This document shows positions 16,366 to 39,456 of a stretch of DNA of 64,000 nt, piece after piece. The notes under the pieces were generated by a model, which was given only the letters and a program-made list of their open reading frames with translations, made no database searches and had not been told where the DNA came from. The DNA comes from Gammaproteobacteria bacterium (GTDB lineage Bacteria; Pseudomonadota; Gammaproteobacteria; Steroidobacterales; Steroidobacteraceae), in contig JANXYK010000025.1 of the NCBI GenBank assembly GCA_025350055.1, forward strand, positions 1-64,000. Direction: 5' to 3'. The translations under genes were made by a program, and so were the position numbers. Numbering within the stretch: position 1 is the first letter of the stretch; each line of letters starts with the position of its first letter.

Positions 16366-16414
16366 TTTAAGTCATTAAACGGCTGTTGAGTTGCGGGTTT
16401 GGCTGGCCTAGAAT
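16366..16414 (+). promoter_or_regulatory. Sigma-70-type promoter and possible operator of the TetR-Rieske gene
   Basis: TTGAGT at 16386-16391 and TAGAAT at 16409-16414 are separated by 17 bp, 29 bp before the ATG at 16443. Just upstream an AT-rich inverted repeat (TTTAA-gtca-TTAAA, 16366-16379) stands out in GC-rich DNA and could be an operator. The operator role is a guess. Confidence 0.5.
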
Positions 16415-16442
16415 GCGCTCCTGACGCAATCGGGGGTGCTCC

Positions 16443-18302
16443 ATGTCGGTCAACCTGGACCTCAAGAACGCCAGCCGACCCAGCGGCTCCAAGCTCGACC
16501 TAATCCACGCTGCGGTCGAGGCGATCTCGCGCTACGGCCTCTCCGAACTCACCTCGGCACGCATTGCCGGCGCCGCAGGGCACACCGCAGCCTCGATCAA
16601 TTTTCACTTCGGCAGCAAGGAAGCCCTGTTGCTGGCCACCTTGCGCGAGGTCTCGGAGGAGTACGCGCAGTTGCTGGCGGGCACGCTCGCCAACGCCGGC
16701 GACGATGCACTGCAGGCGCTGCTGGGCATCGTCGATCTGTCGCTGAGCCCGCAGCTCAGCGACTCGCACCGTATCGCGGTCTGGTACGCCTTCCTGACCG
16801 AGTCGGGCGCACGCGCCGCCTACCAGCGCATCTGCGGCGAGCGCGACCAGAACTACATCCAGAGCCTCACGAGGCTGTGCACGCGCCTCACCGAGGCGCA
16901 TGGCAATGCGCGCTGGCCCAATGCGCAGGCCGTCGCGCGCGGGCTTGCGGGCCTCGTGGACCAGCACTGGCAGGGGATCTTGTTCGCCGGGGACGCCTTC
17001 GATCGCGAGGCCGCGCGGCGCCAGTGCCGCGACTACCTGTGCAGCGTGTTCCCGTGGCTGGCGGTGCGCATCGAGGCGAGTCTGCCGCCCGCGCCGGCGA
17101 GCGCGCCCACGCCCGCGGTGGCGCCCGGTGTTGCGTCCGGCGCTGCCCCCGGTCTGCACTACACGTTGCCTGCGTGGATCTACCACAACGAGGAATTCCA
17201 AGAGCTGGAGCGCCAGCAGCTGTTCATGCCGTCCTGGCAGGTGGCGGCGCATGTCAGCGAACTGAAGCGCAGCGGCGACTACGTGAGCTTCGACTACTAC
17301 GGACAACGTGGTTTCGTAGTGCGCGACGAGACTGGCACGCTGCGCGCCTTCCACAATGTCTGTGCGCATCGTGCCCATGGCCTGGTCGAGGGCGAGCGCG
17401 GGCAGTGCGGCAAATTTCTCACCTGCAAGTACCACGGCTGGACTTACCATCTGGACGGCCGCAATCGCAGCATCAGCGCGCCCGAGAGTTTCGCGCCTTT
17501 CGATCGCAGCAAGTTCGGGCTCAAGCCCATCGAGCTCGAAGAGTGGCTGGGCTTCGTGTTCGTGCGTTTCCAGGGCGGGGAGCCCTCGGTCGCCGAGCGC
17601 ATGGCGCCGCATCAGGCGGAGCTCAGTCACTATCGCATCGCCGAGATGGAGCCGCTGACCGAGCTGTGGGAGCGCGAGGTGGCAATCGACTGGAAGAACG
17701 TGGTCGAGAACTACGTCGAGGACTATCACTTTCCGATGGGCCACCCGGGACTCGCGGCGCTGATGGATCCGGACTACGAGCGCCAGGTGTCGCCCGGGGG
17801 CACGATGCGACTCAGTCATCGTGTGCGCACCCAGCCGCGCCGCAGCTGGAGCGCCGAGCGCTATGCCGCGATATTGCCGGAGGTGGAGCACCTGCCGCCC
17901 GATATGCGCCGGCGCTGGAGCTATTTCGGGCTGTTCCCCAACATCTATTTCGATGTCTATCCCGAGTGGGTGGATTTCTTCCAGCTGCTGCCCATGGCGG
18001 CCGGACGCACCCGCCTGCGCGCGCGCGCCTTCGGCCTGGCGGATGACCGGCCTGCGATGCGCGCGGCGCGCTACCTGAACCGGCGCATCAACTATCGCGT
18101 GCAAGACGAAGACGAGGCGCTCACGCACTCGGTGCAGCGGGGTCTCGCCTCCGGTGCCTATACCCAGGGCATACTTTCGGACAAGGAAATGGTGCTGGCC
18201 GGCTTCCAGGACTGGGTAAGGGCGCGCCTGCCGGTGGCGGCGCTGGCGCAGGCGCCCACGCGTGGCACGATCGCGGCGCGTAACCTCGAATTGTCAGTCT
18301 GA
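16443..18302 (+). CDS. TetR/BetI-like regulator fused to a Rieske aromatic-ring-hydroxylase-type oxygenase
   Basis: One uninterrupted frame of 619 residues joins two proteins. Residues 1-213 are a TetR-family repressor of BetI type: helix-turn-helix SARIAGAAGHTAASINFHFG, then the helical ligand domain with the WYAFLTESGARAAYQRIC element. Residues 214-238 are an Ala/Pro linker. Residues 239-619 are a complete Rieske oxygenase alpha subunit with a [2Fe-2S] site CxH...CxxH (C307, H309, C328, H331) and a mononuclear iron site (H429, H434, probably D504). The bridging position three residues before H429 is Glu426, as in carnitine monooxygenase CntA, rather than the usual Asp. No reductase is encoded nearby. 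The HD-domain gene follows after 26 nt. Substrate is unknown; a quaternary or methylated amine is the best guess from the BetI-like part and the Glu bridge. Confidence 0.85.
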   Translation: MSVNLDLKNASRPSGSKLDLIHAAVEAISRYGLSELTSARIAGAAGHTAASINFHFGSKEALLLATLREVSEEYAQLLAGTLANAGDDALQALLGIVDLSLSPQLSDSHRIAVWYAFLTESGARAAYQRICGERDQNYIQSLTRLCTRLTEAHGNARWPNAQAVARGLAGLVDQHWQGILFAGDAFDREAARRQCRDYLCSVFPWLAVRIEASLPPAPASAPTPAVAPGVASGAAPGLHYTLPAWIYHNEEFQELERQQLFMPSWQVAAHVSELKRSGDYVSFDYYGQRGFVVRDETGTLRAFHNVCAHRAHGLVEGERGQCGKFLTCKYHGWTYHLDGRNRSISAPESFAPFDRSKFGLKPIELEEWLGFVFVRFQGGEPSVAERMAPHQAELSHYRIAEMEPLTELWEREVAIDWKNVVENYVEDYHFPMGHPGLAALMDPDYERQVSPGGTMRLSHRVRTQPRRSWSAERYAAILPEVEHLPPDMRRRWSYFGLFPNIYFDVYPEWVDFFQLLPMAAGRTRLRARAFGLADDRPAMRAARYLNRRINYRVQDEDEALTHSVQRGLASGAYTQGILSDKEMVLAGFQDWVRARLPVAALAQAPTRGTIAARNLELSV

Positions 18303-18328
18303 GCACGATCAGCGCGGGAGCAGCAGGC

Positions 18329-18910
18329 ATGCAGAAAGTGGTTTCGTTCACGCAGATGAAGTACGGCACCGGCGAGGACTACCAGTTCCTCGATGCCGAG
18401 GCCGACGAATATGCACGTGGCCTGCCGGGCGTGGTGCTCACGGCGCTGAAGCAACTGGGTCGCGGCCTGCAGGGCTATCGCGTGAGTCGCCTCGAGCATT
18501 CGCTGCAATGCGCGACCCGCGCGCAGCGCGATGGTGCCGATGACGAGATGATCGTGGCCGCGCTGTTGCACGATATTGGAGACGAACTCGCGCCCTTCAA
18601 CCATGCTGCGGTGGCCGCCGCGGTGATACGGCCCTATGTGCGTGAGGAGGTCACCTGGATCGTCGCGCAGCATGGGTTGATGCAGACTTATTACTACGCG
18701 CATCACTCAGGCGGTGACCGCAACATGCGCGACCAGCTGCGCGGCCATCGCTGGTTCGACGCGGCCGCGGCCTTCTGCGAGAACTGGGACCAGGCTTCCT
18801 TCGACCCCGACTACAAGTCACAGCCGCTCGAAGCCTTCGAGCCGCTGGTGCAGCGGATCTTCACCCGCAAGCCGCACGATCCGATGGTATTGCTGGCGAA
18901 CTCTGGCTGA
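18329..18910 (+). CDS. HD-domain protein, probable PhnZ/TmpB-like mixed-valent diiron oxygenase
   Basis: The protein has 193 residues. The metal-ligand pattern fits six ligands as in PhnZ and TmpB: His in LEHSLQC, His-Asp in ALLHDIGD, His in PFNHAA, His in VAQHG and Asp in ENWDQ. Most HD proteins are phosphohydrolases, but this six-ligand pattern with the LEHSLQ opening is that of the diiron oxygenase branch, which cleaves a C-H-activated hydroxylated substrate (C-P or C-C bonds). PhnZ has His three residues after the HD pair; here it is Asp (HDIGD), so substrate or gating may differ. It sits 26 nt behind the TetR-Rieske gene, an arrangement that suggests hydroxylation by the Rieske enzyme followed by cleavage here. 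Confidence 0.75.
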   Translation: MQKVVSFTQMKYGTGEDYQFLDAEADEYARGLPGVVLTALKQLGRGLQGYRVSRLEHSLQCATRAQRDGADDEMIVAALLHDIGDELAPFNHAAVAAAVIRPYVREEVTWIVAQHGLMQTYYYAHHSGGDRNMRDQLRGHRWFDAAAAFCENWDQASFDPDYKSQPLEAFEPLVQRIFTRKPHDPMVLLANSG

Positions 18911-18925
18911 GGGATCTGCGCGCGC

Positions 18926-19285: not shown

Positions 19286-19306
19286 GCTTTAGTCTGGCGC
19301 GGAAGA

Positions 19307-19507
19307 CTAGCGCGCAGCGCGGCTACGACGCCGCGTCACGGATTTCAGCCCGGGTTCGCTGCCGCCCAGGATTGCCAGCCGCCGCGCGCTTTCACGCGCG
19401 ATCAGCGCCTCGAGCCCGGCGTGGACCACCGCAGTCTTCTCGGCCAGCCCGCTCAGGCGCCGCGCCTTGCCGAGCAGCTCTTCATTCAGGATCAGTGTCG
19501 TTCTCAT
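19307..19507 (-). CDS. vapB: VapB-type antitoxin
   Basis: The ATG at 19507 (MRTTLIL) gives 66 residues; an ATG at 19513 is also in frame. The sequence matches short VapB antitoxins: an N-terminal ribbon MRTTLILNEELLGKARRLSG, then EKTAVVHAGLEALI and a basic C-terminus that should wrap the toxin. Its start lies at the edge of an inverted repeat that is the likely operator. Confidence 0.88.
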   Translation of the reverse strand: MRTTLILNEELLGKARRLSGLAEKTAVVHAGLEALIARESARRLAILGGSEPGLKSVTRRRSRAAR

Positions 19508-19547: not shown

Positions 19548-19570
19548 GTCGATGCCCGCAATTCCGGGCC

Positions 19571-20947
19571 TCAGATCGCGCGCAGGTACCACTCGTAGTC
19601 GCGATCGCTGATCTCGGCGTGGAAGCGCGCGCATTCCTCGCGACGGCAGGCGGCGTACAGCTTGTGGTAGCGCTCGCCCAGGTAACGCGGCAGCACGGTG
19701 CCGGCATCGAAGGCATCGAGTGCTGCTTCCCAGCGTAGCGGCAGTTCGATCTTCTCCACGATTTCAGTACCGGGCAGGGTCATCGGGCCAGGCTCGCGGC
19801 GCGTGGTGAGGCCATGATGGATGCCGGCCAGGATCGCCGCCATCACCAGGTACGGATTGCCATCTGCGCCGCCTGGCCGGTGTTCGACGCGCGTGTCTTC
19901 AGCTGCGGACAGCGGGATGCGCAGCGCGACGCCGCGGTGGTTGACGCCCCAGTTGGGCGCCAGCGGCACGAACAGTCCCGGGCGGTAGCGGCGATAGGAG
20001 TTCGCGGTCGGCGCAAAAATCGCCATGCTCTCAGCCATCGTCGTCGCGAGGCCACCGATCGCATGGCGCAGGGTGTCGGAGCAGGGCTGCCGCGAGTCGG
20101 TGGGCGCAAAGACATTGTGGCCCTGTGCGTCGAGCAAGCTGACATGCACATGCAGGCTGCAGCCGGCGTACTCGGCGAAGGGCTTGGCCATGAAGGTGGC
20201 GCCCAGGTTGTGCCGCAGCGCAACTGCCTTGACCGCACGCTTGAGCAGTACCGCGTGATCGCAGGCCAGCTCCGCGTTGGCAACGTGGTGCAGGTTCACT
20301 TCGATCTGGCCGGGCGCAAACTCCTTGAGCGTGGCGCCGACAGGAATGTTCTGCGCGGCACACACAGCGTAGAGCTCGCGCAGAAACGGATTGATGTCCT
20401 CGACTTCCTGCGGGCTCGCGTATTGCGTGCCGATCTGGCGGCGGTGCGTACCTGGCATCAGGCCCACGTGTGGCACGGGCCGCTCGCCGCCGTGGTCGAG
20501 CAGGTAGAACTCCAGCTCGGTGGCCGTGACCGCGGTCAAGCCCATCTCGCTCAAGGGTCGCATGGCATTGCGCAGTACTACACGCGGGTCGGTGTAGTGC
20601 GGTGTGCCCTCAGGCTCGGCCAGCGTCAACAGCAGCTGGGCGCTGGGCACCGGAGCCCAGGGCACGGGGGCGAGCGAGCCCGGGACTACCGTCGCCACGA
20701 CGTCGGGGTCACCATCGCGACTGCCTTGGGCCAGCTCGTCGAAGGTGGAGCCCTTGGCATCGAGCAGCACCGCGGCGCCACAGTAGTTCACGCCGCGCGC
20801 GAAGACGCCCGCGAACTCATGTTCGACCACGCGCTTGCCGCGCAGGATGCCGAGCATGTCTGGCTGCAGCAGCTCGAGCCACTCGGTTTGCGGGTGACGC
20901 TTGAGGTATTGCTGCAGTTCGCGTTGTCCGGCATTGCTATCGCTCAT
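19571..20947 (-). CDS. Glutamine-synthetase-family gamma-glutamyl-amine ligase (PuuA-like)
   Basis: The protein has 458 residues with the glutamine-synthetase fold. The catalytic-domain motifs read TATELEFYLL, PGQIEVNLHH, LHVHVSL, NSYRRYRPGLF and VEHRPGGADGNPYL. GQ(F/I)E(I/V)NLHH is typical of the PuuA/GlnT branch, which ligates glutamate to putrescine, methylamine, ethanolamine or similar amines rather than to ammonia. It is the last gene of the minus-strand operon and starts 2 nt after the stop of the enoyl-CoA hydratase gene. In this setting it could trap an amine freed by the pathway. Confidence 0.82.
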   Translation of the reverse strand: MSDSNAGQRELQQYLKRHPQTEWLELLQPDMLGILRGKRVVEHEFAGVFARGVNYCGAAVLLDAKGSTFDELAQGSRDGDPDVVATVVPGSLAPVPWAPVPSAQLLLTLAEPEGTPHYTDPRVVLRNAMRPLSEMGLTAVTATELEFYLLDHGGERPVPHVGLMPGTHRRQIGTQYASPQEVEDINPFLRELYAVCAAQNIPVGATLKEFAPGQIEVNLHHVANAELACDHAVLLKRAVKAVALRHNLGATFMAKPFAEYAGCSLHVHVSLLDAQGHNVFAPTDSRQPCSDTLRHAIGGLATTMAESMAIFAPTANSYRRYRPGLFVPLAPNWGVNHRGVALRIPLSAAEDTRVEHRPGGADGNPYLVMAAILAGIHHGLTTRREPGPMTLPGTEIVEKIELPLRWEAALDAFDAGTVLPRYLGERYHKLYAACRREECARFHAEISDRDYEWYLRAI

Positions 20948-20949
20948 GG

Positions 20950-21783
20950 CTATTCCCTCGTACGCGCGCTGCGCCAGGCGATCGCGGCCTTCGCGCCATC
21001 GCGCGCCAGGATCGCATTGAACTCGCGTGACTCGGCAGTCTCGCTGGTTTCGATGGTGATGTTGATTTCCAGCGCCTGGCGCAGCGCTTTGCGCATGCCG
21101 GCCGCATCGAGGCTGCGATTGATGGCCTGCTTGGTGAGCGTGACGGCTTGCAGGTCGTTGCCGGCGACGCGCTGGGCGAGCGCCAGTGATTCTTCGAGCA
21201 CGCGGCCGGTCGGCACTACGCGATTGACCATGCCTGCCGCCAACGCCTCGGCGGCGCTGACGCGATCATCGCCGCTCAACAGCAGCTGCTTGGCGCGCTT
21301 AGGGCCCGCGAGCCAGGGCAACAGCATGGCAACGATGCCGCTGCCGAAGCGCACTTCCGGCGCACCGAACAGGCATTCTTCGCTGGCGATCGTGAGGTCG
21401 CAGGCGAGCGCCAGTTCCAGCGCGCCGCCGAGGCAATAGCCGTGCACGGCCGCGAGCGTGACCTTGGGGCTGTCCCAGAAGCGCACGATCAGGCGGAAGT
21501 CGTTCTCGAGTGCGCGGCGCACGGCGCTGGCATCGGGCCTCGCGCCGCTTCCCAGCCCCATGTCCAGATCAAAGCCTGCCGAGAAGGCGCGACCCGTGCC
21601 GTTCACCACGATCGCACGCACCGTGGCATCGGCTTCAGCCATCGTCAGCGCGCGATCGAGTGCGCCCTGCATCGCGACGTTGATTGCATTCAGCTTGTCG
21701 GGACGATTGAGCGTCAGCAGCGCCACGCTGCCGTGGCGCTCGTAGCGCAACAGCTCAGCGCTGGTGGCGGGCGCCGTGGCCAT
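20950..21783 (-). CDS. Enoyl-CoA hydratase/isomerase family protein
   Basis: The protein has 277 residues with the crotonase fold. The oxyanion-hole region is FSAGFDL and the two catalytic glutamates of true hydratases are present, in GGALELALACD and FGAPEVRFG. It should hydrate an enoyl-CoA. The ATG overlaps the TGA of the upstream acyl-CoA synthetase (TGATG), which implies coupled translation. Together with the synthetase and the acyl-CoA dehydrogenase across the divergent promoter it completes a short beta-oxidation-like or CaiA/CaiD-like set. Confidence 0.88.
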   Translation of the reverse strand: MATAPATSAELLRYERHGSVALLTLNRPDKLNAINVAMQGALDRALTMAEADATVRAIVVNGTGRAFSAGFDLDMGLGSGARPDASAVRRALENDFRLIVRFWDSPKVTLAAVHGYCLGGALELALACDLTIASEECLFGAPEVRFGSGIVAMLLPWLAGPKRAKQLLLSGDDRVSAAEALAAGMVNRVVPTGRVLEESLALAQRVAGNDLQAVTLTKQAINRSLDAAGMRKALRQALEINITIETSETAESREFNAILARDGAKAAIAWRSARTRE

Positions 21784-23912
21784 CAGGCGCGCTGCGCAAG
21801 GGTTTCAGGCCGCTGTGCTGCGTTGCCTAGCGCGCTGCCCGGCACGATCAGCGCATCGACAATGGTGCAGCCGCCCGCGTGCACGATTACCGGGTTCAGG
21901 TCGAGCTCCGCGAGCCGCGGACCGAGTCCCGCGAGCAGCGACGAGAAGCGCGCTGCCATGCGGCAGAACTCGTCCACAGCCAGCGGTTGGCGATGGCGCC
22001 TGCTGTGCAGCAGCGGGGCGATGCGCAGCGAGGCCACCAGGCGAGCTGCGTGTTCGGCGCTGAAGGGCGGCAGCGCGTAGGCGACGTCGGCCAGTGCTTC
22101 GACATGCAGGCCGCCAGCGCCCAGCATCACCACCGGGCCAAACTGCGGGTCCTGGAACATGCCCAGCAACAGTTCCACCCCTGGTGCGGCCACCATGGGC
22201 GCGATCAGTGCGCGCGGGCCAATGCGGCCGCTCATGTCCTCATAGGCGTTCAGCAGCGCGGCCACATCGCGCAGGCCCAGGCGCACACCGTCCTGATCCG
22301 ACTTGTGGTGAATGCCGGGCATCGCGCTCTTGAGCACCAGCGGGAAGCCGAGTTCGCGGGCGGCGGAGCGCGCCGCCGCGGCGCTCTCGACCAGGCGCGC
22401 AGGGTTGGCGGGCAGGCCGGCCTCGTTCAGCAGCGCCATCGCAGTGACCTCGTCGATGGCATTGCCGGATCGCAGCTGCGCAAGCCACGAGGATAGGGCT
22501 GTCGCCGCAACGGGCTCGAGCGCTTCATGCCTCCGTGCCGCGTGGTCGCGAAATTCCAGCAGGCAACGGGCGCCCTGCAGGAAAGAGTGCACGCCATCGA
22601 GCACCGGGAAACCCGCGCGCGTTGTCGTGACCACCTGCGGATCGGCACCGGTGCCCTGGCGATTCGCGACCAGGAAGGCCGGCTTGCCCGAGGCCTCGTG
22701 GCCCGCGCGCAGGTAGTCGATGTACACCGGGAAGATGCCGCCGGTGGCACTGCGATCATGGATCACCGCGCCGAAGGCTGCGCCCGGATCGCGCATCAGC
22801 GCGCTGAAGCACTGCTGCATCGTCACATCATAGTCGGCGCCGCCCGTGCTCCAGCCATCGAGCGGATTGACCGGCGGCAGGCCAGGATCGAGCAGCGTTT
22901 GCAGCTGGCGCGTGCTTTCATCTGTCAACACAGTGAGCGGCACTTTGGCATCGTGCGCGAGATCGATCAGCAACTGGCGCTCGCCGCCCGAGTCATGGAT
23001 CGACACCAGCCCCCCGGCACCCGGCGCATGCGGCTGCGCGAACATAATAAGCGCGGTGGCCAGTTGATCCATGTCGGCCACGCGCTGCACGCCGTAGCGA
23101 TCGAAGAGCGCCTGGTAGGCGCCATCGTCGCCGGCAATCGCGCCTGAATGCGACATCGTGAGCCGGGCCGAGAGTTCCGTGCGCCCGACCTTGAGTGCCA
23201 CGATGGGAATGCGCCGTTGCTGCGCCTTCTCGAAGGCACGTTGCAAACCCTGCGGATTGCGCGCGGTTTCCATGAACAGCCCCACCACGCGGGTGCTGGG
23301 TTGGTCGAGGGCGTAGTCCAGGTACTCGTCCATCGTGACGCCAAGTTCCTGGCCGGTGGAGACCACCAGGTTGAAGTCGATGCGCTCCTCGCAATCGACA
23401 ATGCCGCACATACCCGAACCCGAGTGGCTAATGAAGGCCACATTGCCGCCGCGCACATGCGCGCGGGTCTGGAACCCGCAGGCCCACACGCCGGCCTCGA
23501 AGTTGTAGTAGCCCATGCCGTTGGCGCCGCAGACCGCGAGCTTCGCGGCCTGGATCTGCGCGCGCACGCGCTCGCGCAGCGGCGGGTCCTGGTCCTGTTC
23601 GAGCACCAGCGCCGACATCAGCGTCGCGGCGCGCGCGCCATGGGCGATGGCATCCGCCAGCGCAGCTTCGATGCGCTCGTCGCTGACCGCGAAGATCACC
23701 TGCTCAGCAGGCTCCGGCAGGGCGGCGAGCGAGGGGAAGCAACGCACACCGCAGACCGACTGGTAGCGCGGGTTGACGGCGTACAGCGGGCCGGCAAAGC
23801 CGCCGGCCAGCAGGTTCTCAATCGTGGTGCGGCCGACCGTGGCGGCGCGCTCGCTCGCGCCGAGCACCGCGATGGATCGTGGTCGCAGCAGGGGTTCGAG
23901 ACGATGCGGCAT
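21783..23912 (-). CDS. ADP-forming acyl-CoA synthetase (acetate-CoA ligase family)
   Basis: The protein has 709 residues in the fused alpha-beta layout of ADP-forming acyl-CoA synthetases: CoA-binding Rossmann domain (about 1-130), two succinyl-CoA-ligase-like domains (about 150-455) and an ATP-grasp domain (about 470-700). The likely phospho-histidine lies in MSHSGAIAGDD. It makes an acyl-CoA from an acid, ATP and CoA with release of ADP. Acid specificity is unknown. It follows the GcvT-like gene by 21 nt in the same operon. Confidence 0.85.
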   Translation of the reverse strand: MPHRLEPLLRPRSIAVLGASERAATVGRTTIENLLAGGFAGPLYAVNPRYQSVCGVRCFPSLAALPEPAEQVIFAVSDERIEAALADAIAHGARAATLMSALVLEQDQDPPLRERVRAQIQAAKLAVCGANGMGYYNFEAGVWACGFQTRAHVRGGNVAFISHSGSGMCGIVDCEERIDFNLVVSTGQELGVTMDEYLDYALDQPSTRVVGLFMETARNPQGLQRAFEKAQQRRIPIVALKVGRTELSARLTMSHSGAIAGDDGAYQALFDRYGVQRVADMDQLATALIMFAQPHAPGAGGLVSIHDSGGERQLLIDLAHDAKVPLTVLTDESTRQLQTLLDPGLPPVNPLDGWSTGGADYDVTMQQCFSALMRDPGAAFGAVIHDRSATGGIFPVYIDYLRAGHEASGKPAFLVANRQGTGADPQVVTTTRAGFPVLDGVHSFLQGARCLLEFRDHAARRHEALEPVAATALSSWLAQLRSGNAIDEVTAMALLNEAGLPANPARLVESAAAARSAARELGFPLVLKSAMPGIHHKSDQDGVRLGLRDVAALLNAYEDMSGRIGPRALIAPMVAAPGVELLLGMFQDPQFGPVVMLGAGGLHVEALADVAYALPPFSAEHAARLVASLRIAPLLHSRRHRQPLAVDEFCRMAARFSSLLAGLGPRLAELDLNPVIVHAGGCTIVDALIVPGSALGNAAQRPETLAQRA

Positions 23913-29763: not shown

Positions 29764-29809
29764 TGAATAGCCATTCATTCATTGCAATGCGGCCCGGGGA
29801 GGCTAGAAT
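29764..29809 (+). promoter_or_regulatory. Promoter of the BetI-like regulator operon with overlapping inverted repeats
   Basis: TTGCAA at 29782-29787 and TAGAAT at 29804-29809 are 16 bp apart. The -35 hexamer lies inside the palindrome CATTGCAATG (29779-29788), and TGAAT-agcc-ATTCA (29764-29777) lies just upstream. These could be the operator of the BetI-like repressor controlling both divergent operons; this is inference. Confidence 0.45.
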
Positions 29810-29817
29810 CGGGCCCA

Positions 29818-31723: not shown

Positions 31724-32871
31724 TGGCGCCACGACGCGCGTTGCGATGGGCCGCGCTGCTGGTGACAGTGGCGGTCGCGTTGGCGGTGGCGCTGTCCTTG
31801 CGGCCGCCCGTGGCGCCAGCGCGGGCAGCGGGTGCGCCGGCGGCCGAAGAGCAGCTGCTCAACATCTTCACCTGGCCCGACTACATCGCCCCCGACACGA
31901 TCGCCAATTTCGAGCGCGAATACGGCATCAAGGTCAACTACGACACCTACGATTCCACTGAGATGGCCGAGGCGCGCCTACTCGCAGGCCACACCGGCTA
32001 CGACGTCGTCGACCATGCCGAGCGCTACTCGGCGCGGCTGATTCCCATCGGTGTGTACCAGCCGCTGGACAAGAGCAAGCTCACGAACTGGGGCAATCTC
32101 GATCCCTGGGTACTGCAGTGGCTCGATACCTCGGATCCGGGCAACCGCTACGGCGTGCCTTATCTGTGGGGCACCACCGGCTTCACCTACAACGAGCGCA
32201 TGATCCGCGAGCGCATGCCCAATGCGCCGGTGACCAGCGGCGACATGCTGTTCAAGCCCGAAGTGGCCAAGAAGTTCGCCGATTGCGGCATCACCTTCAT
32301 CGATGAGCCCACCGATGTGATCCCGATGGCGATGGCCTACCTGGGCCGCGACCCCAACAGCCTGGATCCGAAGGACCTCGCCGACGTCGAGGCGCTGCTC
32401 AATGGTGTGCGCCCGTATATCCGCTACTTCAGTTCTGCCAAGATGCTGATCGATCTGCCCAATGAAGAGGTATGCGTGGCGATGAGCTGGTCGGGTGACT
32501 ATTCGCAGGCGATGCTGCGTGCCCGGCAGGCCGGCCGTCCGGTGAAGCTCGCCTACACCACGCCGCGCGAGGGCGCGCTGGCCTGGTTCGACATGTGGTT
32601 CATTCCGGCCGACGCCCCGCATCCGAACAATGCCCATCTGTTCCTGAATTACCTGCTGCGACCGAGCGTGATCGCCGCGGTCAGCAACGAAACCCGCTAC
32701 GCATCGCCCAATATCAAGGCCCTGCCGCTGTTGCTGCCCGAGGTGCGCAATGACCCTGCCGTGTATCCGCCGGAATCGGTGCGCAACCGGTTGTTCAAGG
32801 GTGTGCTGCGCGATCCCAAGGAAGAGCGTACCCGCTCGCGCCTGTGGTCGCGGGTGAAGGCGCGCCTGTGA
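31723..32871 (+). CDS. Periplasmic binding protein of a polyamine-type ABC importer (PotD/PotF family)
   Basis: The GTG at 31723 gives 382 residues. An N-terminal hydrophobic segment after RRALRW serves as signal peptide. The mature protein begins with the family hallmark NIFTWPDYI and contains GVPYLWGTTGFTYNE. Relatives bind putrescine, spermidine and other amines, and some bind 2-aminoethylphosphonate or opines. The ligand here is unknown. The gene is coupled to its neighbours on both sides (TAGTG, GTGA). Confidence 0.88.
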   Translation: MAPRRALRWAALLVTVAVALAVALSLRPPVAPARAAGAPAAEEQLLNIFTWPDYIAPDTIANFEREYGIKVNYDTYDSTEMAEARLLAGHTGYDVVDHAERYSARLIPIGVYQPLDKSKLTNWGNLDPWVLQWLDTSDPGNRYGVPYLWGTTGFTYNERMIRERMPNAPVTSGDMLFKPEVAKKFADCGITFIDEPTDVIPMAMAYLGRDPNSLDPKDLADVEALLNGVRPYIRYFSSAKMLIDLPNEEVCVAMSWSGDYSQAMLRARQAGRPVKLAYTTPREGALAWFDMWFIPADAPHPNNAHLFLNYLLRPSVIAAVSNETRYASPNIKALPLLLPEVRNDPAVYPPESVRNRLFKGVLRDPKEERTRSRLWSRVKARL

Positions 32872-33968
32872 ACGAAGCCACACCGATGGTGCAGATCCGC
32901 GGCCTGTCGAAGCATTTCGACGGCGTGGTGGCAGTGAACAATGTCTCGCTCGATATCCAGCGCGGCGAACTGTTTGCGATCCTCGGCAGCTCCGGCTGCG
33001 GCAAGACCACGTTGCTGCGCATGCTGGCCGGCTTCGAGCGGCCGAGCTCGGGCCAGATCCTGATCGACGGCGTGGACATGACCGAGGCGCCGCCCTATGA
33101 GCGGCCGGTCAATCTGATGTTCCAGTCCTACGCGCTGTTCCCTCACATGAGCGTGGAAGGGAATGTGGGCTATGGCCTGCGCAAGGAAGGGCTGCCGGCG
33201 GCGCAGATCCGTGAGCGCGTGGCGGAAATGCTGGCGCTGGTGAAGCTCGATAACCTGGCCGCGCGCAAGCCCGACAAATTGTCCGGCGGGCAACAGCAGC
33301 GCGTGGCATTGGCGCGCGCGCTGGTCAAACGCCCGAAGCTCCTGTTGCTCGATGAGCCGCTGGCGGCGCTCGACCGGAAACTGCGCGAGCACACGCAATT
33401 CGAACTGGCCAACCTGCAATACCAACTCGGCACCACCTTCGTCGTGGTGACGCACGACCAGGACGAGGCCATGGTGCTCGCGAGTCGCATTGCGGTGATG
33501 GCCGAGGGCCGCATCGCACAGGTGGGTACGCCGGCCGAGGTCTATGAGTATCCCGCCAATCGCCACGTGGCCAGCTTTGTCGGCAACATCAATCTCATCG
33601 ATGGCGTGGTGACCGACGCCGGGGCAGGGCGCGCGACCTTGCGCTGCGAGGCGCTCAATGCCTCGCTCAGCGTGGTGTGTGAGGACGCACCGGCGGCTGG
33701 CGCAGCCCTGTGCATTGCGGTGCGCCCCGAAAAGATCACCATCAGCCGCGCGGCGCCGGAAGGCCAGGATCGCAACGTCGTCAAAGGCGTGGTGCGCGAT
33801 CTGGGGTACTTTGGCGATCAATCCTTGTATCGGGTGCGATTAAGTAGTGGCACCGTGCTGCAGGTCAGCGCCCAGAACCTGCGCCGCTCGGCGAGTCTCA
33901 CGATCGAATGGGATGACGAGGTGTATCTGTCGTGGGAAGTGGCCAGCACGATCCCGCTGCGTTCCTGA
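32868..33968 (+). CDS. ABC importer ATPase, PotA/PotG family
   Basis: The GTG at 32868 overlaps the binding-protein stop (GTGA) and gives 366 residues. Walker A GSSGCGKTT, Q-loop MFQSYALFPHM, signature LSGGQQQRVALARAL, Walker B LLLLDEPLAALD and switch His in VVTHDQDEA are all intact. A C-terminal TOBE domain (about 275-360) follows. It energises the importer encoded by the adjacent genes. Confidence 0.92.
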   Translation: MNEATPMVQIRGLSKHFDGVVAVNNVSLDIQRGELFAILGSSGCGKTTLLRMLAGFERPSSGQILIDGVDMTEAPPYERPVNLMFQSYALFPHMSVEGNVGYGLRKEGLPAAQIRERVAEMLALVKLDNLAARKPDKLSGGQQQRVALARALVKRPKLLLLDEPLAALDRKLREHTQFELANLQYQLGTTFVVVTHDQDEAMVLASRIAVMAEGRIAQVGTPAEVYEYPANRHVASFVGNINLIDGVVTDAGAGRATLRCEALNASLSVVCEDAPAAGAALCIAVRPEKITISRAAPEGQDRNVVKGVVRDLGYFGDQSLYRVRLSSGTVLQVSAQNLRRSASLTIEWDDEVYLSWEVASTIPLRS

Positions 33969-33994
33969 GCCAGCCTTGTGAACACACCCGTCAA

Positions 33995-34909
33995 GTGAGC
34001 GCGCCAGCCAAAAAGGCCACCGATCCGCAGTTGTGGCTGCGGCGCGCGCTGCGCATGCCGTACCTGTGGCTGCTGCTGTTCTTCCTCGCGCCCTTCCTGA
34101 TCATCCTGAAGATCAGCGTGGCGGAGCCGATGATCGCGCAGCCGCCCTTCAGCGCGCTGCTGGTGTGGGGCGCGCATGGCCTGCAGGGCATCCGCGCCAC
34201 CTTCGAGAATTACAGCTTCCTGTTCCGCGACGGCTACTACGGCATCATCGTGCTCTCGTCGCTGAAGATGGCCGCGATCGGCACCGTGTTGTGCCTGCTG
34301 CTGGGCTATCCGATGGCCTATTTCATTGCCCGCCAGCCGCCGCGCCGCCGCCAGATGTTGCTGCTCGCCGTGATCCTGCCGTTCTGGATCTCCTTCCTGC
34401 TGCGCGTCTACGCCTGGATCGGCCTGCTCGACAACCACGGCATCATCAACCACGCGTTGATGAGTATGGGCATCATCCACAAGCCGCTGGCGATGCTCTA
34501 CAACGATTTCGCGGTGTATCTGGGCATCGTCTATTCCTACCTGCCGTTCATGATCCTGCCGCTGTATTCCACGCTCGAGCGGCTGAACGTCGATCTGCTG
34601 GATGCCGCGGCCGATCTGGGCGCACGCCGCTGGCGCGCCTTTGTCGATGTGACCTTGCCGCTCTCGATGCCCGGCATTCTCGGTGGGTGCCTGCTGGTGT
34701 TCATCCCGGCGGTGGGCGAGTTCACGATTCCGGCGCTGCTGGGCGGCGCCGACACGCTGATGATCGGCCGCGTGATGTGGGATGAATTCTTCGTGAGCCG
34801 CGACTGGCCGGTGGCCTCGGCCGTGTCAGTGGTGCTGCTGCTGCTGCTGATCGCGCCGATTCTCTGGTTCCAGCACCTGCAGAATCGTGAGCACGAGGCC
34901 GGATCATGA
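33995..34909 (+). CDS. ABC importer permease, PotB/PotH family
   Basis: The GTG at 33995, 26 nt after the ATPase stop, gives 304 residues; the open frame upstream overlaps the ATPase gene. About six membrane segments are visible. The EAA loop that docks the ATPase is LDAAADLGARRWRAFVDVTL. Its last bases overlap the next permease (ATGA). Confidence 0.88.
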   Translation: MSAPAKKATDPQLWLRRALRMPYLWLLLFFLAPFLIILKISVAEPMIAQPPFSALLVWGAHGLQGIRATFENYSFLFRDGYYGIIVLSSLKMAAIGTVLCLLLGYPMAYFIARQPPRRRQMLLLAVILPFWISFLLRVYAWIGLLDNHGIINHALMSMGIIHKPLAMLYNDFAVYLGIVYSYLPFMILPLYSTLERLNVDLLDAAADLGARRWRAFVDVTLPLSMPGILGGCLLVFIPAVGEFTIPALLGGADTLMIGRVMWDEFFVSRDWPVASAVSVVLLLLLIAPILWFQHLQNREHEAGS

Positions 34910-35712
34910 GGCGCCGTTCGATCTTCCTGATCAGCGTCGCCTGCTTCGGCTATGCGCTGCTCTACATGCCGATCGTGTCGGTGGTCGTGTATTCCTTCAA
35001 TGCCTCGCGGCTCGTGACCCTGTGGGGAGGATTCTCCACGCGCTGGTACGTGAGCCTGCTGTCGGACGACAAGCTGCTGGCGGCGGCCTTCCTCAGCCTG
35101 CGCATCGCGGTGGTCAGTGCCACGCTCGCGACCGCGCTGGGCGCGATTGTCGCCTTGGCCTTGCACCGCGTGCGCCGCATTCCTGGGCGCATCCTGCTCA
35201 GCGGCATGATCACGGCGCCGCTGGTGATGCCGGAAATCATCACCGGCCTCTCGCTGCTGTTCCTGTTTATTTCGATGGCGAGCCTGATCGGCTGGCCGGC
35301 CAGCCGTGGCGCGCTCACCATCACCATTGCGCACGTCACCTTCTCGATGGCCTACGTGGTCGTCGTGGTGCGCTCGCGGCTCGCGGTAATGGACGAGTCG
35401 CTGGAGGAGGCGGCCATGGACCTGGGCGGTCGTCCACTGGCGGTGTTCTTCGACGTCACGGTGCCGATGCTGCTGCCGGCGCTGCTGTCCGGGTGGTTGC
35501 TGGCCTTCACGCTCTCGCTCGACGACCTGGTGATTTCCAGTTTTGTCTCTGGGCCGGGCGCCACCACCTTGCCGATGCTGATCTTCGCCAAGGTGAAGCT
35601 CGGCGTGACACCGGACATCAACGCGATCACAACCATCATCATTGGCCTGGTGATCGTGGCGGTCACCACAGCCGGGCTCGTGACCAACCGGCGCAAGGCG
35701 GCCAGCGCATGA
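34906..35712 (+). CDS. ABC importer permease, PotC/PotI family
   Basis: The protein has 268 residues with about six membrane segments. The EAA loop reads LEEAAMDLGGRPLAVFFDVT. It completes a four-gene polyamine-type importer. The ATGA at the end couples it to the second Rieske gene, which ties import directly to oxidation. Confidence 0.9.
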   Translation: MRRRSIFLISVACFGYALLYMPIVSVVVYSFNASRLVTLWGGFSTRWYVSLLSDDKLLAAAFLSLRIAVVSATLATALGAIVALALHRVRRIPGRILLSGMITAPLVMPEIITGLSLLFLFISMASLIGWPASRGALTITIAHVTFSMAYVVVVVRSRLAVMDESLEEAAMDLGGRPLAVFFDVTVPMLLPALLSGWLLAFTLSLDDLVISSFVSGPGATTLPMLIFAKVKLGVTPDINAITTIIIGLVIVAVTTAGLVTNRRKAASA

Positions 35713-36965
35713 ACAGCGGCAAGGACCCGGTACTGGTGGCGTTGCAGAACTGGCGCAGCGGCCATGGCTTGCCCGGCCTGCTCTACCACGATGCCGCGCT
35801 GTACGAGCGGGAGGTCCAGCGCATCTTCTTCCGCTCGTGGCTGTACGTCGGGCATCAGAGCCAGCTTCCGCAGCGGGGCGATTACCTGTTGTTCGAGATC
35901 GCCGGCGAATCGGTGATCGTGGTGCGGCAAGGCGAGAGCGCGGGGCAGATAGGTGCGATGCTCAACGTCTGCCGTCATCGCGGTTCGAAGCTGTGCGATG
36001 CGGCCACTGGCCATGAGGCCCGCTTCGTGTGCCGCTATCACGGCTGGACCTATGGCCTCGACGGGGCCCTGCGCGGCGCCAGTCATATGCCCGAGGGCTT
36101 CGATCGATCGCGGCACAGTCTGCGGCAATTGCAGTGTCGGGTGTTCGCCGGCCTGATCTTCATCAACTTCGCTGCCGATGCCGCACCCTTCGAGCTGCTG
36201 AGGGACGACATGGCCGCCCCATTGGCGCCCTATGGCCTGGAGCACACCAGGATCGCGCACCGCCAGAACTATCCGATCACGAGCAACTGGAAGCTCGCGG
36301 TCGAGAATTACTGCGAGTGCTATCACTGCGGGCCGGCGCATCCTGAATATTCCGTGGGCCATGGCCGCGCGATTCCCAAACCCGAGTGGGATCACCTGAT
36401 GCACGAGATCCTGGCGCGGGCGCCGCAGATGGGTCTCACCCAGCACCACATCCGGCGCATGTGGCTCGATGCCGGCGCTTTCGGCGTCGATCGCAGCTTT
36501 GAGCGCTATCCGCTGCTGCGCGGGCACCAGAGCGGCAGTCGCGATGGCGCGCGCCTCGCTCCGTTCCTCGGCTCCATCACGGGTTTCGATGGCGGCGCCA
36601 CGGATTTCCAGCTCGGGCCCACCACCTTCGGCCTGGCGTACTGTGATCACGTGCTGCTGTATCGCTTCACACCGCGCGGCCTGCGCGACACCGACTGCGA
36701 GATCACCTGGCTCGTGAATGAGTCAGCGGTCGAAGGTCGTGATTATGAACGCGAGCAGCTGATCTGGCTGTGGCATGTGACCACGCTGGCCGACAAGAGC
36801 ATCATCGAGCGCAACCAGGCGGGCGTCGACTCGCGCTACTACGAGCCCGGGCCGCTCTCGCCGATGGAAGATTTCGCAAATCATTATCTGCGCTGGTACG
36901 TCGCGACGATGAGCGACACAGCTGGCCAAACGGAACGACTTCGCTCAGGAGGACAACATGCTTAA
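35709..36965 (+). CDS. Rieske non-heme iron oxygenase, alpha subunit
   Basis: The ATG at 35709 gives 418 residues. Rieske cluster: CRH (C88, H90) and CRYH (C108, H111). Mononuclear iron site: ENYCECYHCGPAH (H206, H211), with Asp in AYCDHVLLY as the probable third ligand. The residue three before H206 is Glu203, as in CntA. The overall length and the HGWTYGLDG and NWKLAVEN blocks place it among GbcA/CntA-like oxygenases acting on quaternary amines such as betaine, carnitine and stachydrine. No ferredoxin-reductase subunit gene is in the window, so electrons must come from elsewhere. Confidence 0.87.
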   Translation: MNSGKDPVLVALQNWRSGHGLPGLLYHDAALYEREVQRIFFRSWLYVGHQSQLPQRGDYLLFEIAGESVIVVRQGESAGQIGAMLNVCRHRGSKLCDAATGHEARFVCRYHGWTYGLDGALRGASHMPEGFDRSRHSLRQLQCRVFAGLIFINFAADAAPFELLRDDMAAPLAPYGLEHTRIAHRQNYPITSNWKLAVENYCECYHCGPAHPEYSVGHGRAIPKPEWDHLMHEILARAPQMGLTQHHIRRMWLDAGAFGVDRSFERYPLLRGHQSGSRDGARLAPFLGSITGFDGGATDFQLGPTTFGLAYCDHVLLYRFTPRGLRDTDCEITWLVNESAVEGRDYEREQLIWLWHVTTLADKSIIERNQAGVDSRYYEPGPLSPMEDFANHYLRWYVATMSDTAGQTERLRSGGQHA

Positions 36966-39456
36966 GGCAACGCGCACTGCTGCAATCACATCCATACTCG
37001 CCGGGCTGGCGCCGGCACAGGCACTGCTGCTGGCGTGGCCAGCGCGCGTGCAGGGCGCCAGCGCTTCCAGCAGCAACGATCTCGAGGAGATCGTGGTGAC
37101 CGCCACGCGCCGCTCGGAGAGCCTCAGCAAGGTGCCCGTCAGCGTGACGGCGCTCTCGCAGGATGCCATGGACGATCGCGGCATTAAGGATTTCCAGGAC
37201 ATCGCCCGCTACACGCCCGGCATCAACATCGACAGCGCCGGCACCAACGCGATCTCGATCCGCGGCATCTCCTCCTCAGGCGGTGCCGGTACCACCGGCA
37301 TCTACATCGACGACACACCGATACAGATGCGCTCGCTCGGCTTCAATCCTGATGACACCCTGCCCAAGACCTTCGACCTCGATCGCATCGAGGTACTACG
37401 CGGCCCGCAGGGCACCTTGTTCGGCGCCGGCTCGGAAGGCGGCACGGTGCGCTACATCCTGGCGGCACCGAAGCTGACGGGCTCGAGCACTTACCTGCGC
37501 AGCGAGTTGTCGATGACCCAGGGCGGCCAACCAAGTTACGAGTTCGGCATTGCACATGGCGCCGCGTTGATCGACGGCAAGCTGGGCGTGCGCGCCAGTA
37601 TCTGGTATCGCAACGACGGCGGCTGGATCGATCGGGTCGATCCGACCAGCAGGGCGGTGACCGAGACCAATGCCAATCACGGCGACTCCTACAATGTGCG
37701 CCTGGCGGCGGTGTGGCAGCCCGCGAGTGCCGTTATCGTGACGCCCAGCATCATCTACCAGAAGGCCAACAAGCACGATCAGTCGACTTTCTGGCCGGCG
37801 TACTCGGACGCCGCCGGCGGCCACTTCAACAACGCGACGCCGGAGCGCATTCCGGTGAATGACAAGTACTATCTGCCATCGCTGAAGATCGAGGCCGACT
37901 TCGCGCACAGTCAGTTGATCGCCACGACTTCCTATTTTTCCCGCGATGAACTGTCGGGTTACCAGGGCACGGTCTACGACATGGCCTACTACCAGGCGCT
38001 GGGTTGGGCCGGCAATCCCAATACTGGCGGCCTGTCATGCGGCGCGAGCTCGGTGGCAACCGCACCGCCGTGCGACTGGTATCCGCTGATCGACGAGAAA
38101 GGCATCCATCTGCCCGCCGGGTTCAGCGGGTATCAAACCCCCAACACAATCACCAATTCGCAGCGCAGCTGGACCCAGGAAGTCCGCTTGCAGTCGAGCG
38201 ATGATCAATCCAAGTGGCGTTGGACTGTGGGCGCTTTCTGGCAGCAATCGAAGGAAGGCAGCCTCGAGGAGCTGAAGGATACGCAGATCAACGATCTGAT
38301 CACCGCGCTCTATGGTGTTGACGCTTTCAGCATCTTTGGTCAACATTATTCCTGCAACGGCGTTGGCACCTACACTGGGATCCCCGCCTGCGACATCTAT
38401 TACAACAACAACTCGACTACCGACCGGCAGGTGGCGGGTTTCGGCGAGCTCAGCTACGCCTTCGACGATCGCTGGCGCCTCACGGTAGGTGAACGCGTCG
38501 CGCGAACCAAGTTTTCCCTGAATCATCTCGGCGACGGGCTTGAAAATTTTATACGGGAGACTCGCGATGCGTCGCAGTCCGAGAGTCCGAATACCCCCAA
38601 GGCGAGCCTCGCTTTCCAGATGGATCAGCGCAACCTGTTCTACGCCACTGTGGCCAAGGGCTTTCGTGTGGGCGGCGGCAATGCGCCGCTGCCACAGTTC
38701 TGTGATTTCGATATCCACGCGCTGGGATACCCCAATGGCGCGCCGCTGACCTACAAATCGGATTCGACGCTGAGCTACGAAGTCGGATCGAAGAACAGCT
38801 TTGGGCCGGCACTGAAGATTGCAACCAGTGCGTACTACATCAAGTGGCGTGACATCCAGCAGAGCGTCTACGTCGCCGGTGGCTGTGGGCTGCAATTCAC
38901 CGACAACCTCGGTACCGCGGTTGCGAAGGGCTTCGATCTGCAGGCGGAATCCAGGCTCGGACCCATGAATTTCGATCTGGCCGTCGGCTATACGGACGCG
39001 CGTTACAGCAAGGCAACGCTGCTGGCGAATGCCGGTGATGCCATTTCTGGCCAGGACTCGATCAATCAGAGTCCTGGTACCACTTCGCCGTGGACCGTTG
39101 CACTGGGCGCCGAATACGGCTTCAAGCTCGCCGAACACCAGGCCTTTGTGCGCATGGACTGGCAGTACCAGAGCCGCAACAACTGGTACTCCACCTTCCA
39201 GGACCCGAACTCACTGCAGAACAACCCCGACACCTACGCGCTGCCGGCCACGAGCTTCGTGCAGCTGCGCGCCGGCCTGCACCTGGGCAACTGGCAGGTC
39301 GCGGCCTTCGCCGACAACCTGTTCAATTCGCACACGGTCACCAACTACCAGCTCGGACAGCTCGACGGCTTCAATCCGACGCCACCGCATGAGCAGGAGA
39401 ACCAGTACACCTTCCGGCCGCGCACCTTTGGCCTGACGGCCACGCTGCACCTCTAG
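36958..39456 (+). CDS. TonB-dependent outer-membrane receptor
   Basis: The protein has 832 residues. A signal peptide ends near residue 34 and is followed by the TonB-box-like EEIVVTATRR. The plug domain (about 50-165) contains IEVLRGPQGTLFGAGSEGGT, and the beta-barrel ends with TFGLTATLHL, an aromatic-poor but acceptable C-terminal strand. It should carry a substrate too large or too scarce for porins across the outer membrane. It overlaps the Rieske gene by 8 nt and is the last gene of the plus-strand operon. Confidence 0.9.
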   Translation: MLKATRTAAITSILAGLAPAQALLLAWPARVQGASASSSNDLEEIVVTATRRSESLSKVPVSVTALSQDAMDDRGIKDFQDIARYTPGINIDSAGTNAISIRGISSSGGAGTTGIYIDDTPIQMRSLGFNPDDTLPKTFDLDRIEVLRGPQGTLFGAGSEGGTVRYILAAPKLTGSSTYLRSELSMTQGGQPSYEFGIAHGAALIDGKLGVRASIWYRNDGGWIDRVDPTSRAVTETNANHGDSYNVRLAAVWQPASAVIVTPSIIYQKANKHDQSTFWPAYSDAAGGHFNNATPERIPVNDKYYLPSLKIEADFAHSQLIATTSYFSRDELSGYQGTVYDMAYYQALGWAGNPNTGGLSCGASSVATAPPCDWYPLIDEKGIHLPAGFSGYQTPNTITNSQRSWTQEVRLQSSDDQSKWRWTVGAFWQQSKEGSLEELKDTQINDLITALYGVDAFSIFGQHYSCNGVGTYTGIPACDIYYNNNSTTDRQVAGFGELSYAFDDRWRLTVGERVARTKFSLNHLGDGLENFIRETRDASQSESPNTPKASLAFQMDQRNLFYATVAKGFRVGGGNAPLPQFCDFDIHALGYPNGAPLTYKSDSTLSYEVGSKNSFGPALKIATSAYYIKWRDIQQSVYVAGGCGLQFTDNLGTAVAKGFDLQAESRLGPMNFDLAVGYTDARYSKATLLANAGDAISGQDSINQSPGTTSPWTVALGAEYGFKLAEHQAFVRMDWQYQSRNNWYSTFQDPNSLQNNPDTYALPATSFVQLRAGLHLGNWQVAAFADNLFNSHTVTNYQLGQLDGFNPTPPHEQENQYTFRPRTFGLTATLHL

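Follow-up and report, generated by a model that had tools for sequence, protein, structure and literature searches.

A TetR regulator fused to a Rieske oxygenase within a conserved gene island of predicted methylated-amine catabolism

The window analysed here is a stretch of 64,000 nucleotides (positions 1 to 64,000) of contig JANXYK010000025.1, numbered C29 among the 76 contigs of a 3.29 Mb gammaproteobacterial genome of the family Steroidobacteraceae (GCA_025350055.1). Three packed gene units span 16.4 to 39.5 kb of this window, and the first of them opens with a single open reading frame (ORF) joining a BetI-like TetR regulator to a Rieske oxygenase. The island is read, with a rough probability of 0.55, as a catabolic pathway for an N-methylated polyamine-like amine, in which the TetR::Rieske chimera would act as a second regulator reading the state of its oxygenase. 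Related clusters are widespread in uncultured Gammaproteobacteria and on alphaproteobacterial plasmids, correspond to no pathway that we could name, and very likely serve to consume methylated nitrogen compounds.

Window genes were delimited and assigned by ORF listing, codon-position GC content and family scans (Pfam and equivalog-type models). The families, gene order and overlaps proposed by a first-pass annotation, made from the sequence without database searches, were borne out. Its two Rieske oxygenases and BetI-like regulators were present as families, except that the first regulator and the first Rieske protein form one ORF of 619 amino acids (aa), a fusion that its gene list had overlooked. 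The genes of the island, with the evidence for each, were as follows.

16443–18302, + strand: TetR (BetI-like)::Rieske oxygenase fusion, 619 aa (Pfam, AlphaFold2 model, Foldseek, orthologues)
18329–18910, + strand: HD-domain putative diiron oxygenase, PhnZ/TmpB/MIOX-like, 26 bases 3' of the fusion gene (family scans, alignment of relatives)
19571–20947, − strand: glutamine synthetase-like ligase, PuuA/GlnA III-like (family scans)
20950–21783, − strand: enoyl-coenzyme A (CoA) hydratase (family scans)
21783–23912, − strand: ADP-forming acyl-CoA synthetase (family scans)
23934–25136, − strand: GcvT-like folate-dependent demethylation protein, 400 aa (family scans, tblastn against relatives)
25133–26701, − strand: PYROXD2/CrtO-like flavoprotein a, PYROXD2a (family scans)
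26694–28316, − strand: PYROXD2/CrtO-like flavoprotein b, PYROXD2b, the survey anchor (family scans, searches of relatives)
28324–29661, − strand: class III aminotransferase, GntE/GSAM-like (longest ORF starts at 29778; probable start at 29661 from homologue coverage)
29782–30576, + strand: BetI-like stand-alone TetR regulator, TetR2 (family scans; true start probably 29818 or 29851)
30557–31723, + strand: acyl-CoA dehydrogenase (family scans)
31723–32871, + strand: PotF-like periplasmic binding protein (family scans, homologue search, site alignment)
32844–33968, + strand: PotG/PotA-like ATPase, longest ORF (family scans)
33932–34909, + strand: PotH-like permease, longest ORF (family scans)
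34906–35712, + strand: PotI-like permease (family scans)
35709–36965, + strand: Rieske oxygenase 2 (Rieske2), Stc2/GbcA-like (family scans, comparison with solved chains)
36958–39456, + strand: TonB-dependent receptor (family scans)

The first unit holds the fusion and HD genes on the + strand, the second runs on the − strand from the aminotransferase to the glutamine synthetase-like ligase, and the third, divergent from it, runs from TetR2 to the TonB receptor. Neighbouring genes overlapped by 1 to 20 bases at several junctions, including stop-start overlaps on the + strand (PotH/PotI and PotI/Rieske2, 4 bp each; Rieske2/TonB receptor, 8 bp) and on the − strand (GcvT-like/PYROXD2a, 4 bp; PYROXD2a/b, 8 bp).

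All Pfam domains of the fusion lay on one frame: TetR_N at residues 20–65, TetR_C_6 at 91–202, Rieske at 264–350 and Ring_hydroxyl_A, the catalytic domain, at 409–596. A Pro/Ala-rich linker (about residues 205–240) follows the TetR part (20–202). Internal translation of the Rieske half was discarded for the window gene, as this linker contained no ATG and none of its four GTG/TTG codons stood behind a Shine-Dalgarno-like sequence; linkers of three relatives (loci L191, L194 and L195, of clade A below) do hold a GTG or TTG behind such a sequence, and an internal start is possible there. In the AlphaFold2 model (mean predicted local distance difference test score, pLDDT, of 84), the TetR helices were confident and the oxygenase half mostly so, residues 220–236 falling below 50. 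Stc2 and CntA were the best Foldseek matches of the oxygenase half (template-modelling scores by target of about 0.71–0.84). Enzyme and DNA-binding domains share one chain, as displayed by the single ORF, the confident modelled domains and their conservation in other genomes. TetR dimers and Rieske trimers differ in symmetry; one arrangement that would reconcile them is a hexamer in which three TetR dimers link two trimers. None of the 59 matched solved sequences spanned both halves, and no description of a TetR-Rieske fusion was found among the matches listed from the open-licence PubMed Central literature, to which the matches listed for trigger enzymes with TetR contributed nothing further; each part belongs to a known superfamily, and for the combination we found no description. 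To our knowledge, a Rieske oxygenase in a trigger-enzyme role has not been described previously.

The fusion was searched in 396 genomes of the order, the counts being lower bounds among the matches listed, and at least 28 genomes carried a TetR-Rieske fusion. Clade A comprised six genomes of the order (the window's, G706, G618, G691, G416 and G022), the other five proteins being 66–70% identical to the window's over nearly the full length, and a seventh member from another order (G159, 51% identity). At least 22 genomes of the order showed a more divergent match crossing from the TetR half to the Rieske half; in 20 of these genomes, no in-frame stop interrupted the match. The two clades differed in their metal ligands. 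All seven clade A proteins kept the Rieske CxH and CxxH motifs, the mononuclear-iron motif ExxHxxxxH (its Glu being taken, by assumption, as in CntA) and the distal Asp. Of the 19 clade B proteins read, all had CxxH and 3 had the histidine of CxH; none of the 18 extending into the iron-site region had the canonical ExxHxxxxH (the L202 frame ends earlier).

A stand-alone counterpart of the fused oxygenase (Rieske1) lay in the same cluster in 16 of the 19 clade B loci and was not seen in L200, L206 and L210 within the locus stretch examined. Rieske and triad ligands were present in 15 of these 16 copies, and the remaining one (L196), cut by a contig end, has the triad. Stand-alone and fusion genes were convergent in 15 of 16 loci, with gaps of −8 to 114 bases in 10 and of 1.5 to 3.3 kb in 5, and divergent, 16 kb apart, in G001b. 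No TetR2 was detected in clade B loci at 35% identity or more; it was present in all four clade A genomes whose stretch reaches it (the window's, G159, G022 and G416). Ratios of nonsynonymous to synonymous substitution rates (dN/dS) in clade B were 0.08–0.19 for the TetR domain and 0.22–0.36 for the Rieske-derived domain (six pairs from 11 proteins, one used twice), and 0.12–0.20 for both halves in clade A (two pairs). The degraded oxygenase domains of clade B are still evolving under constraint.

Fusions have probably arisen repeatedly. In an oxygenase tree of 53 rows built with a quick method, the fusion of genome G252, with intact ligands, grouped with alphaproteobacterial stand-alone enzymes. 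Approximately unbiased (AU) tests rejected a Rieske clade uniting clade A with G252 (p-AU 4.2e-7), as well as one uniting clades A and B with G252 (p-AU 0.001); clade B sat on a long branch and its position was unsure. Given the separate Rieske placement of G252 and clade A, at least two fusion events appear to be needed, unless domains were swapped. The midpoint-rooted TetR tree set the fused type, plus a few unfused members, apart from TetR2 (Shimodaira-Hasegawa-like approximate likelihood ratio test, SH-aLRT, 99). Contig C34 of the window genome (L213 10048–11924) encoded unfused TetR and Rieske genes with a 4-base overlap, 39–42% identical to the fusion halves, which is a plausible precursor arrangement. 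At the other end, genome G303 (L215 2318–3220) displayed a TetR domain with a degraded Rieske stub, about 80 residues long, behind it; a neighbouring gene presumably encodes a product resembling trimethylamine methyltransferase. In a sample of the class, 7 of 321 genomes matched, the window's own included, with fusions in G159 and G252 and the stub in G303. In a sample of the phylum, 16 of 398 genomes (own included) matched the TetR half, and the other 15 gave no clear fusion, bar two candidates left unchecked: a 344-aa frame on contig C11 of G721 and a 618-aa frame with a stop in the match on contig C25 of G761. Living sequences of this family form a series, from an unfused overlapping pair through intact and degraded fusions to a stub. 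The series looks like an oxygenase turning into the sensor of a repressor, and makes it testable whether an enzyme active site can become the receptor of a transcription factor.

The rest of the island was conserved as a cluster. PYROXD2b was searched in 40 relatives and in the 321-genome sample of the class, and contig stretches around the flavoprotein pair were compared. Genomes of GTDB were scanned with a 14-sequence alignment of PYROXD2b, and the best 80 of 595 relatives were kept as loci and compared with the window proteins by local tblastn (identity of at least 35%, coverage of at least 40%). In the 33 of these 80 loci that had at least 9 kb on either side of PYROXD2b, PYROXD2a and the GcvT-like protein were found in all 33, Rieske2 and TetR2 in 25 each, and an aminotransferase (class III as in the island, or SpuC-like) in 21. 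The glutamine synthetase-like ligase followed with 17, the CoA synthetase, acyl-CoA dehydrogenase and binding protein with 16 each, PotG with 15, PotH and PotI with 14 each, a PuuB-like protein with 13, an aldehyde dehydrogenase with 9 and the hydratase with 4; TmpA and BKACE were found in none of the 33. Over all 80 loci, many on short contigs, the counts were 76 for PYROXD2a, 68 for GcvT, 51 for TetR2 and 44 for Rieske2. The PYROXD2 pair and the GcvT-like protein constitute the conserved core; the HD protein and the close TonB receptor are outside it.

Carriers included the marine gammaproteobacterium HTCC2148 and metagenome genomes labelled Halieaceae, Porticoccaceae, Woeseiaceae and Steroidobacteraceae. 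Four alphaproteobacterial plasmids (of Rhizobium sp. SL42, Parasedimentitalea marina, Fuscovulum ytuae and Shinella zoogloeoides) bore related clusters comprising the PYROXD2 pair, GcvT, a Rieske oxygenase, an aminotransferase and a Pot-type ABC importer. The core occurred with few other members in G023, G002, G001 (first place), G013, G028 and G032. As a paralogue control, seven loci at 38–47% identity contained none of the other components, a weak control as these loci were only about 3.2–4.6 kb long. Core and divergent importer operon were found together in varied orders and in different classes. Conservation of the neighbours across Gamma- and Alphaproteobacteria, with the core in 33 of 33 well-covered loci, supports the earlier view of one functional island; the refuting outcome named with that view, neighbours that do not stay together in other genomes, did not occur.

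The substrate class was approached through the importer. The binding protein is homologous to PotF (E 6e-107; 370.7 bits on the PotF equivalog NF007962, below its cut-off of 636). Its site was compared across 35 cluster binding proteins, rows picked at more than 40% identity, with the PotF numbering and putrescine-site residue roles that we assume to apply. Positions W37, D39, W244, D247 and Y314 were kept in 35 of 35 proteins, Y40 and D278 in 33 of 35 each, and positions 84–88 were variable. A zwitterionic ligand held by a carboxylate-binding Arg at position 87 was considered and dropped, Arg occurring there in only 4 of 35. Judging from these residues, a di- or polyamine-like cation would be a likelier ligand than a plain betaine.

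Relatives of the cluster encoded further polyamine-type enzymes. An aldehyde dehydrogenase gene adjoined the CoA synthetase in all five clade A relatives that reach that place (G706, G691, G416, G022 and G159); this family of about 508 aa, found in 22 loci, has PuuC and betaine-aldehyde dehydrogenase as nearest models. It was not present beside the CoA synthetase of the window, the best copy in the genome lying on contig C18 at 63% identity. Many marine clusters added a SpuC-type aminotransferase and an oxidase nearest to the pipecolate oxidase AmaA, which by our reading would be PuuB-like.

A methylated or quaternary amine had been suggested as the substrate, and this is supported by the Rieske proteins and the GcvT-like protein. 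Among solved chains, Rieske1 (the fusion half) was nearest to carnitine monooxygenase and Rieske2 to 3n0q and Stc2; the best match of the GcvT-like protein was the C-terminal (folate) part of trimethylamine N-oxide demethylase, and its score on TIGR00528, the GcvT model of the glycine cleavage system, was 139 (cut-off 235.85). The GbcA model NF058607 (cut-off 670 bits) was not reached by Rieske2 (281) or by the fusion (127). TetR_N and TetR_C_6 exceeded the Pfam cut-offs in both the fusion and TetR2. Only one equivalog cut-off was passed among the scanned enzymes and regulators, NF001978 (BetI) by TetR2 (122.5 vs 118); the BetI equivalog TIGR03384 (cut-off 201.3) was reached neither by the fusion (76.7) nor by TetR2 (120.1). 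The best model of the acyl-CoA dehydrogenase was acryloyl-CoA reductase, and the models of the CoA synthetase included 3-hydroxypropionate-CoA ligase, both well under cut-off; on the strength of these two models, an aminopropyl (three-carbon) fragment is conceivable but unproven.

As a substrate, delta-valerobetaine would fit the order aminotransferase, aldehyde dehydrogenase, CoA synthetase and acyl-CoA dehydrogenase, and was set aside since the importer keeps most of a diamine-type site. The titles and abstract openings of the matches listed for homarine, trimethyllysine/valerobetaine and diatom long-chain polyamine catabolism did not describe the cluster. The first-pass statement that no nameable pathway has the full gene set agrees with the candidate-pathway and gene-set literature, in the same parts of the matches listed.

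Taken together, the amine would be taken up by the TonB receptor and the Pot-type ABC importer, and one or both Rieske oxygenases would start its oxidation at a quaternary or tertiary N-methyl centre. Further N-methyl groups would fall to the two flavoproteins, and the GcvT-like protein would load the resulting one-carbon unit onto tetrahydrofolate. The class III aminotransferase would convert the freed amine to an aldehyde, from which an aldehyde dehydrogenase encoded elsewhere in the genome would make the acid, and the ADP-forming CoA synthetase, acyl-CoA dehydrogenase and hydratase would complete the breakdown. TetR2 would guard the divergent promoter. In the chimera, occupancy, turnover or redox state of the oxygenase may be read out as release from DNA, so that the fusion would repress its own gene, and perhaps the island, until its oxygenase half meets substrate. 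The degraded oxygenase of clade B would act likewise, as a receptor; loss of its canonical iron site in clusters that usually hold a stand-alone copy fits a sensor role, and we infer that an oxygenase was recruited as the sensor of a repressor. More tentatively, TetR-Rieske chimeras could constitute a new class of one-component regulators using a quaternary-amine oxygenase site as sensor. The clade A form would still be catalytic and would signal substrate turnover, or the redox state of its cluster, to the promoter of its own gene; the derived form would be a ligand receptor controlling genes that include its stand-alone sister oxygenase, and the pathway would demethylate and consume N-methylated polyamines.

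Several observations weigh against this interpretation. No island enzyme reached the cut-off for a named pathway step, and no Rieske reductase was found among the island genes by family scans, the rest of the genome not having been searched for one. The use of PYROXD2b as anchor biases the survey towards clusters, and the HD protein and the close TonB receptor were found in 0 of its 80 loci. The polyamine assignment is uncertain because PotF E185 is not kept in the binding proteins (D in 24 of 35, S or T in 11 of 35) and because the binding protein is very different (22–24% identity) in three of the four plasmid clusters. In 19 of 19 clade B proteins the Rieske site retains its two cysteines and one histidine, L200 and L210 display an HxxxxH two residues out of register and without the acidic residue, and the least degraded branch (G001b, L200 and L210) keeps the distal Asp, with CxH in two; for these reasons clade B proteins may still bind metal. 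The clade A oxygenase half carries no sign of sensing and may be a tethered enzyme without coupling. Lastly, sister clusters point to gamma-butyrobetaine/carnitine chemistry.

Among these sister clusters, a close TonB receptor occurred in G001b, G003 and G008 (58–66% identity) and an HD homologue in six loci (60–66%; G003, G008, G016, L199, L202 and L209); several also encoded additional CoA enzymes, as a second set, together with a BKACE homologue. They raise the doubtful alternative that the island degrades a carnitine/gamma-butyrobetaine-type betaine through crotonobetainyl/carnitinyl-CoA to a chain-shortened betaine, which Rieske2, the flavoproteins and GcvT would then demethylate to an amino acid. 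In G003, an aminobutyraldehyde dehydrogenase scored 768 bits, above a subfamily cut-off, and crotonobetainyl-CoA hydratase was the top match of a hydratase (292 bits vs a cut-off of 500); this cluster also encoded a BKACE-type cleavage enzyme and a thioesterase resembling the C-terminal part of carnitine 3-dehydrogenase. The BKACE homologues of other sister clusters, the CntA-like Rieske1 and the one BetI model passed by TetR2 lean the same way. However, family scans called no BKACE or thioesterase gene in the island, whose CoA enzymes were only 26–38% identical to the sister set; for the carnitine-like acyl chain suggested earlier, indirect backing came from the sister type of cluster only, G003 being the one read in detail. 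The importer keeps most of its diamine-type site, and the glutamine synthetase-, PuuB-, PuuC- and SpuC-like enzymes are of polyamine type. The polyamine signal was judged at least as strong as the carnitine signal.

For the fusion itself, a fortuitous read-through of an operon pair, with both halves working as before and no regulatory coupling, seems similarly unlikely. The overlapping pair on C34 of the same genome, as a precursor arrangement, and the about equal constraint on the clade A halves speak for it. The repeated fusion events and retention in at least 28 of 396 genomes argue against it, as does clade B, where the degraded domain has been retained under constraint and the cluster usually holds a stand-alone copy as well.

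The HD protein offers another, improbable, explanation, in which fusion and HD form a two-step TmpA/TmpB-like cleavage pair acting on trimethylaminoethylphosphonate or an analogue, Rieske hydroxylation replacing the TmpA step. Its six candidate ligands (H, HD, H, H, D), noted in the first-pass annotation, were invariant in 13 of 13 aligned relatives; the gene lies directly 3' of the fusion and its product is PhnZ/TmpB-like. In G003, the HD homologue (65%) overlaps the gene of a TmpA-like dioxygenase (366 bits, cut-off 400), and the same pair stands in G008. Yet the HD protein scored far below the TmpB cut-off (NF049941, 39.3 against 300) and was missing 3' of the fusion in all five of the other clade A members examined on that side (G706, G618, G691, G416 and G159). 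Four of the six sister loci with an HD homologue (G016, L199, L202 and L209) had no TmpA, and the importer is Pot-type, not phosphonate-type. A further HD homologue (57%) was encoded on the Pseudomonas aeruginosa plasmid pF045_1 (L004 12863–18820), flanked by TauD/TfdA dioxygenase and choline-type transporter/dehydrogenase genes, another setting of this family among quaternary-amine genes. That unrelated catabolic operons merely lie side by side was largely refuted by the survey and is very improbable, the co-occurrence of core and importer operon across gene orders and classes outweighing the lack of conservation of the TonB receptor and HD protein with the rest.

The preferred reading, amine catabolism with a sensing chimera, has partial counterparts in known systems. 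The group V Rieske oxygenases CntA and Stc2 share fold and metal ligands with the oxygenase half of the fusion and are among the best sequence matches of both island Rieske proteins. They differ in identity (about 25% and 22%, respectively, in the fold comparison), in the fusion of one island Rieske protein to TetR and in the lack of a reductase gene in the island. The island shares with PotFGHI/Puu most residues of a PotF-type binding site (E185 excepted), PotGHI-like subunits and a PuuA-like ligase, with PuuB/PuuC-like enzymes in relatives; in contrast, the PotF, PotG, PotH and PotI equivalog cut-offs were not reached, and the island is coupled to N-demethylation and CoA enzymes. Glycine betaine is demethylated by a Rieske step (GbcA), then by dimethylglycine and sarcosine dehydrogenases with folate capture of the one-carbon unit. 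The same logic of a Rieske step followed by flavoproteins and folate capture is read in the island for a longer amine; its flavoproteins are PYROXD2/CrtO-like, however, its folate protein is separate, and the GbcA model was not reached. The PhnZ/TmpB/MIOX oxygenases share the six-ligand HD pattern, but the island protein fell below their family cut-offs and no TmpA-like gene was found in the island. PutA and other trigger enzymes combine enzyme and DNA-binding activities on one chain and couple metabolism to transcription; the chimera shares this one-chain logic with different folds, and with a degraded enzyme half in clade B. According to an excerpt of its description, a TetR repressor of Mycobacterium tuberculosis controls a putative oxygenase (Rv3160c/Rv3161c; PMC7810876), a similar pairing of regulator and oxygenase as two separate proteins instead of one chain.

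Two upstream elements were located in the window.

16386–16414, + strand: promoter-like element of the fusion gene (TTGAGT at 16386–16391, 17 bases, TAGAAT at 16409–16414)
29764–29777, no strand: inverted repeat TGAATAGCCATTCA, candidate operator between the divergent aminotransferase and TetR2 genes (one match; at least one in 6 of 100 shuffles)

Across six aligned clade A upstream regions, TTGAGT was kept in all six and TAGAAT in four, TAGGAT and TACAAT standing in the others, at a spacing of about 17 bases, and a partly conserved AT-rich block lay just 5' of TTGAGT. This region looks like a promoter with a nearby operator. The conserved block differs in sequence from the palindrome at 29764, which was the sole exact one of its kind in the window; a looser search gave 4 matches, equalled in 24 of 100 shuffles, and an operator shared across the island was discarded.

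Directly upstream of the fusion gene, 12657–16358 (+ strand) encodes a 1233-aa PAS/GAF/GGDEF/EAL cyclic di-GMP protein. Next to the TonB receptor, adjoining − strand ORFs at 39488–40486 and 40514–40978 match the C- and N-terminal parts of one Amidohydro_3 amidohydrolase, an interrupted gene or frameshift. Farther on, the 1072-aa product of 41037–44255 (− strand) is a sortilin/BNR-repeat protein whose nearest model is the F510_1955 glycosylhydrolase, and 51386–52330 (+ strand) encodes an FHA domain together with a guanylate/adenylate cyclase catalytic domain on one chain.

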